Shown piece by piece: positions 331 through 4,567 of a stretch of 35,084 bases of DNA (its first letter is position 1; each line of letters begins with the position of its first letter). This stretch comes from Parcubacteria group bacterium RIFCSPLOWO2_01_FULL_48_18 (GTDB taxonomy: Bacteria > Patescibacteriota > Minisyncoccia > UBA6257 > WO2-01-48-18), in the NCBI GenBank assembly GCA_001824435.1, contig MHXH01000023.1, positions 1 through 35,084 of the forward strand. Reading direction: 5' to 3'. The position numbers were made by a program, and so were the translations under genes. Under the pieces are notes generated by a model that saw nothing but the letters and a program-made list of their open reading frames with translations, was not told the origin of the DNA and made no database searches.

Positions 331-399
331 GTGCTTCCACTGCCTCGCAGCGGCCTTGGCGTATAGTCTCTACGGGATTATTTGCTCAAATTTTCGGAC

Positions 400-428
400 T
401 TGACATAAGATATGTTCTGTGCTAAACC
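400..428 (+). promoter_or_regulatory. Promoter of the gene nested in the S788 intron
   Basis: A perfect -35 box TTGACA (400-405) is followed after 17 bases by TAAACC (423-428). That weak -10 box is extended by TGC just upstream. Transcription would begin near 435, antisense to the rRNA and about 23 bases before the start codon at 458. Confidence 0.6.
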
Positions 429-457
429 ACTCAGTGGGACCTCAACTAGGAGCGGAC

Positions 458-664
458 ATGTTGATCGGTACTGCAGTCGATGATGGACGCAACAGGGGCA
501 TCAAACTACGCGCCGAGTCAAACGAAGAGGCGGCTCGGCTTCATGAGTTCTCGATATTTCTGAAAGCCAATCTCGCTTCTCGGTATTCGAAGGTCGAGTT
601 CGAAGATCCATCAGACGATCGTTATCCCGAACTCTCGATCATCCACGTCACTCACACCACATGA
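458..664 (+). CDS. Small protein (68 aa) encoded antisense inside the 16S intron
   Basis: I do not recognise this protein. The ATG at 458 is chosen because AGGAG (448-452) lies five bases upstream. The in-frame upstream extension to 419 would start with TTG and overlap the promoter. The product is soluble and acidic, with a predicted central helix (SNEEAARLHEFSIFLKANLA) and a later strand-like segment (ELSIIHVTH). No LAGLIDADG, GIY-YIG or HNH motif is present, so it does not look like a homing endonuclease. Its promoter, Shine-Dalgarno site and terminator are all recognisable, so this is a self-contained expression cassette. It is opposite in orientation to the rRNA and could not be translated from the excised intron. 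Confidence 0.7.
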   Translation: MLIGTAVDDGRNRGIKLRAESNEEAARLHEFSIFLKANLASRYSKVEFEDPSDDRYPELSIIHVTHTT

Positions 665-686
665 CCAGCCTCGAAAGAGACTGAAT

Positions 687-720
687 TTGTGCCACCACTC
701 CAAGGTGGCACTTCGTTTTT
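687..720 (+). terminator. Rho-independent terminator of the intron-nested gene
   Basis: GTGCCACC (689-696) pairs with GGTGGCAC (704-711) around a seven-base loop and is followed by TTCGTTTTT. It lies 25 bases after the stop codon of the nested gene. Confidence 0.85.
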
Positions 721-767
721 AACTAAATCCAAAAATTTGAGCAAATAACTTCCCTCGGGATTGTCCA

Positions 768-850: not shown

Positions 851-1630
851 GACACTCCGTTGATCTGCAATGGCTGGGTTTTCCCCGATATAGCTCCGCC
901 GTCGCCTTGCGACTATGACGGATCCTCGATTTTGTAGATTCGCCTTCACTCATACAAAATCGGGACAAGTTTGCTCTTCGATATTTGGCGTTGCCAAATT
1001 CTCAGAGGGACTAGTGCTCGATGTACCCCTTACATCTCGCCTTTAAAAATCTTTCAACCTCAAAAAGCGAATAATTGTGTTTTCGCGGCAACTTTGTGAA
1101 AACGTGTCAAAACTTTTCGAGGAATATTTTCTGCGAACGATATAGCGGAGCGATAGCTCACAAATTTGAGAACTTTTTCAGCAAAACTGCGTTGTTTGAA
1201 GAATCCCGCTAAAAGCGGGACGACGAGTTCGCAGTTTTGCGTTAAGAAAAATTTCCAAGTTTGTCTATCGCGCAGCGTCTAGTGAGCAAAAAATATTCCG
1301 AGTTTGCGTTTCCAATTCCAAAGTATAGTTGCGAGAAAATACAATTATGAGCGTCAATCCTTTTTGCTCCCCACGCTTTCGTGCATCAGAGTCAGGAACG
1401 CGCCAGCTTGCTGCCTTCGCCTTTGGTGTTCCGCACGATATCAACGGATTTCACCCCTACACCGTGCGTTCCGCAAGCCTCTCGCGCCCTCTAAAGTTTT
1501 GCAGTATCTCATGCGGCCCCCCCGTTGAGCAGGGAGATTTAACACAAGACTTACAAAACCTCCTACGCACCCTTTACGCCCAATAATTCCGGATAACGCT
1601 TGGGGCCTTCGTATTACCGCGGCTGCTGGC

Positions 1631-1945
1631 CCCGTCACACAACTTTATGTTGTTTGATAGGACATGGACTATATCACCACCCCGAAATAAATCGGGGGCT
1701 CTGCGTGTTAGCCATCATTTTGTGATGACTCCAACCATCTTTCAGGTCAAGTCTCTGAGGGGTCAATCCCGCTAAGCGAGATGACTTCCCTGCTGATTGC
1801 CAATATGTAAGTCAAGCCCTGCAAGGGGCTGACCGCCGCACATATCAGGTTCCAGCATATAAGCAAAGTTATTCAATCATGATTGCTCATGAAGGTCGCG
1901 CCAGATTCAGCCCTCGCCACACAAAGTTGTGTGAACGGGGCTGGC
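1631..1945 (-). mobile_element. Compact group I intron at 16S position 516 (S516)
   Basis: On the minus strand the 5' exon ends ...CTTCGT (E. coli U516) and the 3' exon resumes GCCAGCAGCCGCGG. The intron ends in G. Core signatures are present in the right order: AATCAGCAGGGAAGTC (Q-like, near 1790), CCTCAGAGACTTGACC (R-like, near 1755) and TGATATAGTCC (S-like, near 1670). P7 can form from GACT and AGTC. With 315 bases and no open reading frame it is a minimal ribozyme intron. S516 is a recurrent group I site in SSU rRNA genes. Confidence 0.87.
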
Positions 1946-2005
1946 ACGAAGTTAGCAGCCCCTTATTCCTCTGGTACTGTCAATCCAGTCCTCTTGAATT
2001 ACGAC

Positions 2006-2033
2006 TTGACAAAGTAGAACTTCGTGTTAAAAT
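2006..2033 (+). promoter_or_regulatory. Promoter of the gene in the helix 17 insert
   Basis: TTGACA (2006-2011), a 16-base spacer and TAAAAT (2028-2033) preceded by TGT form an extended -10 promoter. It points opposite to the rRNA transcript and gives a predicted start near 2040, about 32 bases before the ATG at 2072. Confidence 0.75.
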
Positions 2034-2071
2034 TAGTTTTAGTATTTTTCTGAACCCATGGAGACAAGCTA

Positions 2072-2317
2072 ATGATCTACCATTATCACCTTTTACTTGT
2101 AGCAACTAGAACTAAATACCAAGAACAGCACATTGAATCATTCGAAATCGATACGGGTCAAAATAACTACGACGAAAAATTAGCTGACGGACTGGCCTTA
2201 AGAAAGGCTCAAGGGCTCAGCGAAAATTATCCAACTGACCGACCCGATAAGGATCAACTCATCGTTTGTCGGACAATTGGTAGCACCGGCTGTCCTCGTC
2301 TTCGACCTGATTCCTAA
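2072..2317 (+). CDS. Small protein (81 aa) encoded antisense inside 16S helix 17
   Basis: I do not recognise this protein. GGAG at 2060-2063 is correctly spaced from the ATG at 2072. The N-terminus begins with a hydrophobic strand (MIYHYHLLLVATR), followed by a hydrophilic charged segment and a C-terminus with two cysteines (LIVCRTIGSTGCPR). There is no signal peptide or transmembrane helix. It shows no obvious similarity to the other 16S-nested protein at 458-664. Promoter, Shine-Dalgarno site and terminator are all in place, so expression is plausible, but the function is unknown. Two stop codons follow each other (TAATAA). Confidence 0.7.
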   Translation: MIYHYHLLLVATRTKYQEQHIESFEIDTGQNNYDEKLADGLALRKAQGLSENYPTDRPDKDQLIVCRTIGSTGCPRLRPDS

Positions 2318-2343
2318 TAACTAGTTCTTTAATCTAGGTTTGG

Positions 2344-2367
2344 AAGCCGCGCATAAAGCGGCTTTTG
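2344..2367 (+). terminator. Terminator of the helix 17 gene
   Basis: AAGCCGC (2344-2350) pairs with GCGGCTT (2358-2364) around GCATAAA, followed by a short T run. It lies 27 bases after the stop codon and just inside the 16S helix closing arm. Confidence 0.75.
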
Positions 2368-2564
2368 TCATACTCCAAAAGGACTGGACTTCATCCCAAA
2401 GAAAAGCAGTTTACGCCCCGAAGGGTTTCTTCCTGCACGCGGCGTCGCTCGATCAGGCTTTCGCCCATTGTCGAATATTCTCGACTGCTGCCACCCGTAG
2501 GTGTACGAGCCGTGTCTCAGTCTCGTCGTCGGGGAACAGGCTCTCACCCCCCCTACCGGTCATA

Positions 2565-2599
<35 letters not shown>

Positions 2600-2620
2600 C
2601 GGGCCTAGGCCGCTCCTAGA

Positions 2621-2820
2621 GCGATTTGCATCTTTACTGATAACCGAATTCTGTATGCAAATCGCTAAATTCCCAATTTCTAAATCCTAATTTCTAAACA
2701 AAACCCAATGACTAAAAAAACATTTTTAGACACTAAAAATTAGTACTTGTTTAGGAATTAGAAATTAGATATTAGAAATTTTCTGACTTTCATACAAAAT
2801 TCGGCTATCAGACAATTTGG
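2621..2820. other. AT-rich expansion in the 16S helix 8-11 area
   Basis: Between the conserved block GGCCGCTCCTAGAGC and the block starting at about 2825, the rRNA holds two extra inverted-repeat structures. GCGATTTGCAT (2621-2631) pairs with ATGCAAATCGC (2655-2665). The next arm, made of ATTTCTAAATCC-type repeats (2666-2700), can pair with AATTAGAAATT-type sequence near 2755-2780. It contains no credible ORF. The AT-rich unit is the same family found in the S788 intron and between genes. Confidence 0.65.
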
Positions 2821-2896
2821 AATTACCCCACCTTTCGATGGGCTATGCCAAACTCTAGGGTACGTACCAAGGTATTACTGACTCGTTCGCCACTGC

Positions 2897-3012
2897 CTCG
2901 CGCATAGCGCGAGACGCAGAATAACGCAGATAGCAAGCAGGTGCACGCAGAAAATTTCTGCGGTGTTCTGCAATGGTATCTGCGAATTTCCGCGACTTGT
3001 GCTACGCACAAG
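2897..3012. repeat. 116-bp direct repeat, copy A, inside 16S helix 6
   Basis: This sequence is nearly identical to 3211-3327; the first 66 bases are the same. It replaces the short helix 6 tip of a normal 16S gene. It holds several palindromes: CTCGCGCATAGCGCGAG, GCAGAAAATTTCTGC and CTTGTGCTACGCACAAG, plus an outer CGCAGATA...TATCTGCG pair. The palindromes suggest a folded RNA hairpin or a mobile palindromic element. Confidence 0.85.
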
Positions 3013-3036
3013 GCCGTTCGACTTGCATGCCTTATC

Positions 3037-3076
<40 letters not shown>

Positions 3077-3210
3077 AAATAGATGTCAAAATTTTCAATT
3101 CACTTAGACGCAGAAAATTTTGTCACAGTTTTAAACTGTAACAAAAATTTCTACGCCTTCGGCTTGAAATTTTTGACATTTTAGGGACAACTGGAAAAAA
3201 TCTACCTTTT

Positions 3211-3327
3211 CTCGCGCATAGCGCGAGACGCAGAATAACGCAGATAGCAAGCAGGTGCACGCAGAAAATTTCTGCGAAGTTCTCGCGTTGATATCTGCGG
3301 ATTTCCGCGGCTTGTGCTATGCACAAG
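3211..3327. repeat. 117-bp direct repeat, copy B, in the 16S leader
   Basis: This is the second copy of the element at 2897-3012, in the same orientation 315 bases away. It lies between the rRNA promoter and the mature 16S 5' end. Differences from copy A lie mainly in loops. In the 3' palindrome the loop base changes from TAC to TAT while both arms are kept (CTTGTGC/GCACAAG). Between the two copies, the leader also holds an inverted repeat (3084-3094 with 3167-3178) and a palindrome around 3125-3139. Confidence 0.85.
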
Positions 3328-3510
3328 ATTTATGTTTTCAAAGTTCTCGATAGCCAGAAACTCAACCGGTTCAGAAAGTCAGAAAAATACTCCCGCCTTT
3401 ATCCCGATCCTCTCGGAACGAAGGCGGAAGTACACCACGATACATAATCCGAATGTACGCTAATAATGTTTACATGGACCAAGATCCTCTGTCCTCTATA
3501 TTGTACCCTT

Positions 3511-3601: not shown

Positions 3602-4045
3602 ATGGCCACCGAAGAACAACGCGCCTACGAACTAGGCCTGCTCATCAACCCGACACTCGGAGACACCGGGGCAGAATTGCATCTAGGCAAGGTCACGCAA
3701 TCGCTCAAAGAAACAGGGAGCACTGTTAGTAAAACGAGTCCCTTAAACAAAATCACCCTTGCGTATCAAATCGAAAAAAAACAGAGCGCGTATTTCGGAT
3801 CGATCAACTTTAACGCCGCGCCTTTGCACATCGCACCTCTCAGGCACCAACTCAACCTCGATAACAATGTCATGCGTTTTCTTATTATCACATCAAAGAA
3901 ACAAACAACTATACCGGTTAGGAGAGACGACTCCGATGCCAAACCGCAGAAAATAAAACAAGCTGAGCCGGCCGAAATCATCTCAACGCTCGGCTCATTA
4001 AACAACGAAGAGCTGGAAAAAAGGTTGAAGGAAATACTAAAGTAA
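3602..4045 (+). CDS. rpsF: 30S ribosomal protein S6
   Basis: S6 binds the central domain of 16S rRNA together with S18 on the small subunit platform. The 147-residue product has the S6 pattern: an N-terminal YELGLLINP strand, a central segment KITLAYQIEKKQSAYFGSINF matching the A..I.....G.Y....F core, and RHQLNLDNNVMRFLI near residue 90. A charged C-terminal tail rich in lysine and glutamate follows, which makes it longer than a minimal S6. It is first in the conserved order rpsF-ssb-rpsR. There is no Shine-Dalgarno site, and the promoter -10 box is about ten bases from the ATG, so translation is probably of leaderless type. The 81 bases after the stop are a hairpin element shared with the grpE-dnaK gap. 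Confidence 0.95.
   Translation: MATEEQRAYELGLLINPTLGDTGAELHLGKVTQSLKETGSTVSKTSPLNKITLAYQIEKKQSAYFGSINFNAAPLHIAPLRHQLNLDNNVMRFLIITSKKQTTIPVRRDDSDAKPQKIKQAEPAEIISTLGSLNNEELEKRLKEILK

Positions 4046-4567
<522 letters not shown>

Follow-up and report, generated by a model that had tools for sequence, protein, structure and literature searches.

An antisense gene cassette in a 16S rRNA group I intron looks like one of a little-noticed family of cassettes in bacterial rRNA genes

Positions 378–748 of the window (the whole stretch of 35,084 nucleotides that was analysed, from Parcubacteria group bacterium RIFCSPLOWO2_01_FULL_48_18, a tiny uncultured CPR bacterium) hold a self-contained unit that is antisense to the 16S rRNA and is enclosed by the stem in the P6 region of a group I intron at S788. 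Units with the same anatomy, partly with the same ends, are found at different 16S and 23S rRNA sites with different cargos, and all of them have the same orientation. This looks like an rRNA-dwelling family of cassettes that has been little noticed rather than one odd intron. We assign a probability of about two in three to the reading that these are IVS-like (intervening-sequence-like) stand-alone cassettes in rRNA genes, ended by terminal inverted repeats (TIRs) whose arms would form stems and with an antisense orientation that would be fixed by selection. The original prediction of an oddity of a single intron is too narrow, as cassettes with conserved ends and exchanged cargo are also found at helix tips outside introns.

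The arms of the first cassette (cassette 1; left arm 378–401, right arm 725–748) are 24 nt long and 92% complementary according to the inverted-repeat search. The left arm contains TGCTCAAATTTTYGGACT, which is also present in two cassettes of the 23S gene. The promoter (400–428) consists of TTGACA at 400–405, a 17-nt spacer and the extended −10 element TGC-TAAACC at 420–428. The −10 hexamer is weak, being missed by a standard promoter scan and recovered by a scan that credits the extended TG. A Shine–Dalgarno sequence AGGAG (448–452) precedes an ORF of 68 codons (68 amino acids; ATG at 458, stop at 664), and the unit is closed by an intrinsic terminator (689–720) made up of an 8-bp stem (689–711) and then TTCGTTTTT. 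All of these elements are on the plus strand, which confirms the predicted series of promoter, Shine–Dalgarno site, ORF and terminator between the arms of the P6 stem. The description of the unit as antisense, self-contained and non-endonuclease is upheld by the coordinates and by the lack of an endonuclease domain match, and the suggested fold was run: in the rRNA-sense strand the arms pair over 24 positions into a 24-bp helix.

The host 16S rRNA gene, which also carries a second cassette, is on the minus strand. An Rfam match spans its 5′ part (1243–3082), while the exon continues at 1–103 past the intron and the contig begins within the gene. The intron occupies 104–1353 on the minus strand, with boundaries to within a base or two. 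Its exon flanks map to E. coli 16S 789/789, and the intron is therefore located at S788. The P7 pairing GACUAUA/UAUAGUC can be read directly and, together with the S788 site and a terminal G, identifies a group I intron. The match to Intron_gpI is weak (18.6 bits, E 0.23) and is broken up by the cassette. Cassette 1 is flanked by the motifs GTCTCT.CGGG and CTTCCC.CGG and lies immediately upstream of P7; as far as the sequence indicates, this position fits P6. In other introns of this type the same interval is occupied by a short hairpin or by a longer insert, in some cases a sense LAGLIDADG-like ORF.

The 68-aa ORF is probably a gene, with its expression predicted. An ORF of at least 68 codons led by a Shine–Dalgarno sequence appears on the same strand in 1.1% of Markov shuffles of the cassette 1 loop. 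The codon score of 0.106 is above that of 99.95% of shuffles, although slightly exceeded by one reverse frame, and falls just under the range of the real genes of the window (0.12–0.31). A single-sequence model of the protein is a compact β-β-α-β-β arrangement with a mean pLDDT of 70, and a fold search with this model returned nothing interpretable (best E 0.1). No homing endonuclease domain (LAGLIDADG, GIY-YIG or HNH) was matched in Pfam, PHROGs or NCBIfam, and no relatives of the protein were found in these three libraries or in phages, viral contigs and genome contigs. Matches in 384 genomes of the class were rejected, having E values of 0.008 or worse, being short and in many cases lying within long unrelated frames. 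The check through protein homologues that came with the original prediction thus found no relative in any library or genome searched. It is the wrong test for cassette 1, since the cassettes have ends and not proteins in common. As the cassette proteins are without recognised relatives, the case for their reality is made by codon score, Shine–Dalgarno sequences and TM-like sequence.

Cassette 2 (1984–2388, plus strand and therefore also antisense) is inserted in helix 17 of the 16S rRNA (E. coli 453/479), outside any intron. It is bounded by a left arm at 1984–2005, seen both in the inverted-repeat search and in the fold, and a right arm at 2367–2388 from the inverted-repeat search. The promoter at 2006–2033 (TTGACA, 16 nt, TG-T-TAAAAT) has 11 of 12 matches, and the ORF at 2072–2317 encodes 81 amino acids behind the Shine–Dalgarno sequence GGAG. 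The 81-aa protein has no known relative. Its codon score is equalled by 11% of shuffles and is not significant, and its structure model was too poor to be used (pLDDT 56). The terminator-like hairpin AAGCCGC...GCGGCTTTT at 2344–2366 was read directly; it has a short T tract and falls just below the threshold of the terminator scan. Two further antisense cassettes are present in the 23S gene of the same genome (contig C17, region L044). One is inserted in helix 45 (E. coli about 1157/1186); its 22-bp arms are perfect, and between them lie a promoter and ORFs whose 34- and 21-residue peptides have hydrophobic stretches. The other, near E. coli position 236, has a 12/12 promoter and no ORF; its cargo is an RNA that folds into a hairpin and is followed by a terminator. 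The same 23S region also contains two introns with sense ORFs on its minus strand (2845–3426 and 3776–4408; 193 and 210 aa) that resemble LAGLIDADG homing endonucleases.

Three more antisense cassettes come from other genomes. The host of the L066 cassette is the MAG Ca. Harrisonbacteria RIFCSPHIGHO2_02_FULL_42_16, where the cassette occupies a group I intron of the 23S gene. It has paired TIR arms, a strong promoter (TTGACA-17-TATACT) and a terminator that is likewise strong, with a long T tract behind it. Its cargo of about 220 nt contains no convincing ORF, folds far better than shuffles (z −4.9) and matches no Rfam family. The 23S rRNA of this bacterium is only about 76% alike to that of the source genome over the aligned stretches, introns included, and the two are therefore not close. 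The other two came to light in a survey that covered 428 kb in 201 rRNA regions (145 16S and 56 23S); nearly all of the roughly 150 genomes surveyed belong to the class. L269, near helix 10 of the 16S rRNA in a genome of another family, encodes a 42-aa membrane peptide, while L133, in helix 9 of the 23S rRNA of a genome of the same order, has perfect arms and a 70-aa membrane-protein ORF. The cargo thus differs from cassette to cassette and can be small soluble proteins, membrane peptides or structured RNA.

The arms provide the strongest evidence that cassette 1 exceeds chance. The TIR 18-mer TGCTCAAATTTTTGGACT is common to cassette 1, the 23S helix 45 cassette and the 23S cassette near position 236. 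A search of the 1.2 Mb genome for pairs of this 18-mer (at most two mismatches per arm) gave only three inward-facing pairs, all in rRNA genes and all antisense. The original prediction took the arms for the expected P6 stem; they do pair as a stem, but they are not merely P6, being a TIR that recurs at 23S sites. When 257 Gb of genomes were scanned for exact copies of the arm, 51 loci were found, one of them paired (L066). The 50 others are single and, having no partner arm, were taken as chance. The TIR and promoter-edge patterns gave no matches in viral contigs, where 28 matches to a 15-mer were treated as chance. If the ORF had arisen by chance in a P6 stem that is extended but otherwise ordinary, with promoter, Shine–Dalgarno site and terminator all coincidental, this would agree with the weak −10 box of cassette 1, the lack of relatives of its protein and the variability of P6 in introns of this type. 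We nevertheless consider this very unlikely, since the same arms enclose promoter–terminator units elsewhere (two 23S sites outside introns, and an intron of another bacterium), promoter–terminator pairs are antisense only and shuffles seldom yield the 68-codon ORF.

Terminal inverted repeats in several copies, here with differing cargo, are also a property of MITEs. The cassettes could in that case be non-autonomous transposons that insert throughout the genome, served by a transposase from elsewhere, and survive only at tolerant rRNA stems. This is unlikely, as the 1.2 Mb genome has copies in rRNA genes only, although intergenic ones should survive, and no target-site duplication was seen at the ends. 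Direct reading of the sequence adjoining the arms of cassette 1 and the two 23S cassettes revealed no such duplication; an imperfect CCTTA/ACTTA direct repeat is present at one 23S cassette (site b). No recombinase, integrase or transposase with matching ends was seen to accompany the cassettes. Since neither a target duplication nor a recombinase was seen, we do not call them transposons, and the shared ends alone are what suggests movement.

Pairwise alignment of the seven cassettes reveals likeness at the ends, in the promoter region and in the T tract, and nothing beyond chance words in the cargo. In related pairs 28–52 nt on the left and 25–44 nt on the right are alike (77–89%). The sequence TTTGGACTCTTGACAAAA, which covers the left end and the −35 element, was found with at most two mismatches in 2.2 Mb of fetched DNA only in the two 23S cassettes and in L269. 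The L269 copy is identical (18/18 bases) to the one in the 23S cassette near position 236, and the outer arms of L269 differ from those of the cassettes with the matching left end. Cassette 2 and the L133 cassette have the same build with arms of their own. In an L133 intron the same TGCTCAAA arms make up an empty P6 hairpin, which could represent a footprint or else a stem that was there ancestrally. That such an empty hairpin exists, and that tRNA genes (L130) or structured RNAs are found in other P6 loops whose arms are repeated, would suit host genes parked by recombination in pre-existing rRNA hairpins, with arms made alike by gene conversion. We regard such parking as improbable: the likeness extends beyond the arms into the promoter and the T tract of the terminator, and the shared left end recurs in L269, in another family, within different outer arms.

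Among 166 rRNA insertions, promoter–terminator pairs amount to five distinct antisense cases and no sense case, with none on either strand in a reversed-sequence control; as the scan thresholds were fixed after the first cassettes were known, these counts are descriptive and not a test. Once the helix 17 cassette and L269 are counted in, seven of the seven cassettes are antisense. With carriers limited to four of about 150 genomes, this bias represents seven cases, of which the four in one genome do not stand for four independent lineages. IVP and GIY-YIG sense inserts in relatives, used as a control, are without a promoter–terminator pair. Four inserts with inverted repeats and sense ORFs (L235, L266, L213 and L226) were set aside as known IVP or GIY-YIG kinds. 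We infer that cassettes persist only in the antisense orientation because a terminator facing the rRNA sense would stop rRNA synthesis, and selection would in this way fix the orientation.

Our preferred reading of IVS-like cassettes makes them a reverse-facing form of the rRNA IVS. Each unit is built from an inverted repeat of 17–25 bp at either end, with the −35 element of an extended −10 promoter adjoining the left arm, a variable cargo (a small protein, tiny membrane peptides or a structured RNA) and, next to the right arm, a terminator. In the precursor of the rRNA these arms would pair into a stem that lengthens either the tip of an existing helix or, in a group I intron, the P6 region, and we propose that ribosome assembly or splicing tolerates the insert because of this pairing. 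The insert would be removed by intron splicing in the case of cassette 1 and L066, or by RNase III at the helix sites, after the example of known IVSs (PMC4990558). The cassette's own transcript would come from the strand opposite to the rRNA. Ends that are alike, combined with unrelated cargo and unrelated sites, suggest that the cassettes, or the cargo between the ends, are copied across sites and lineages; the presumed copying route has left no trace in the data. A further-reaching and more tentative reading, to which we give somewhat less than even odds, is that of a mobile rRNA-specialised family in which the ends would serve at once as terminal repeat, rRNA stem and promoter edge, cargo would be exchanged across 16S and 23S sites and CPR lineages, and expression would run inverse to rRNA transcription.

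The genome bin holds a second 16S gene on contig C3, about 86% identical over the aligned parts, and some contamination is therefore likely. Contig C3 measures 11 kb, compared with 122 kb for C23 and 86 kb for C17. The second gene (C3 8933–11095; regions L054 and L290) ends at the contig edge, and its S788 intron has a small sense ORF in P6. It is likely to be either contamination or a second rRNA type, and the 23S contig and the 16S contig of the window might in principle come from two organisms.

The closest known systems are bacterial 23S IVSs such as those of Coxiella and Leptospira, in which an inverted-repeat stem replaces rRNA helix tips (9, 25 and 45); they are a few hundred nucleotides long and may contain an ORF, and a spread from site to site and from lineage to lineage has been proposed for them (PMC4990558). 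The cassettes likewise have inverted repeats that extend rRNA helix tips (at helices 17, 45, 10 and 9, and at about position 236), with the difference that cassette 1 lies within an intron and not at a helix tip. According to the Coxiella paper, the IVS ORF has the same direction as the rRNA transcript (PMC4990558). IVS ORFs (S23p/IVP) are sense and without a promoter of their own, whereas the cassette genes are antisense, have their own signals and vary in cargo; seven of seven ORF or RNA units are antisense, with no IVP match. Insertions described in CPR rRNA genes encode homing endonucleases (LAGLIDADG, GIY-YIG) and IVP (Tsurumaki et al. 2024; PMC11270868), and the main text of that paper is silent on antisense units, promoters, terminators and inverted repeats. 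They share with the cassettes the host group, the kinds of site and the 16S and 23S group I introns. In Didymium, the nuclear rDNA group I intron S956-2 contains an antisense homing endonuclease gene (PMC3679873). As in cassette 1, this gene is opposite to the rRNA strand and is housed in a peripheral loop of the intron, but Didymium is a eukaryote and the product is a homing endonuclease. We know of no antisense genes of the Didymium type that have shared terminal repeats or lie outside introns. Integron cassettes are also small exchangeable single-gene units with conserved ends; they are mostly promoterless, carry attC and stand in arrays beside an integrase, whereas the genes in the rRNA cassettes come with promoters and do not form arrays. 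In open-access papers we came across no description of bacterial rRNA cassettes that are antisense, self-contained and non-endonuclease and that share their ends.

If expressed, the cassettes would place protein and RNA genes backwards inside rRNA genes, which are usually deemed the most protected loci. Stem-forming ends combined with antisense orientation would be a simple rule for foreign genes in rRNA and a possible answer to why IVSs carry inverted repeats. Such genes are likely to be dropped by standard annotation because they overlap with rRNA. With the cassettes one could test how an rRNA gene tolerates head-on transcription passing through it, and whether a duplex of antisense transcript and pre-rRNA aids removal of the insert by RNase III.

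Several other repeats and P6 inserts were observed. In L130 (genome G385) two tRNA genes, tRNA-Phe (GAA) and a second one, lie in the rRNA sense in the P6 loop of a 23S group I intron (2165–2348, minus strand), and another intron of this 23S gene has the same P6 arms enclosing a different structured-looking RNA. In L284 (genome G389) the P6 arms TTTTGTGATTTAAAAAAGT of a 23S intron (about 1885–2120) flank about 160 nt of structured-looking RNA containing AGGGAAAGUCCGGA, which is reminiscent of RNase P and has no match in Rfam. Hairpin repeats of AATTTCTAAATCCTAATTTC are found in the window at 132–167, 274–309, 786–821 and 2668–2780 and on contig C17 at about 60152, 63644 and 64896; within the source genome they are confined to rRNA genes and introns, and constitute another rRNA-restricted repeat. 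Finally, two direct repeats (2897–2969/3211–3283, 73 nt, 97%; 2974–3012/3289–3327, 39 nt, 90%) have one copy in an insertion in helix 6 of the 16S rRNA and the other just upstream of the 16S 5′ end.
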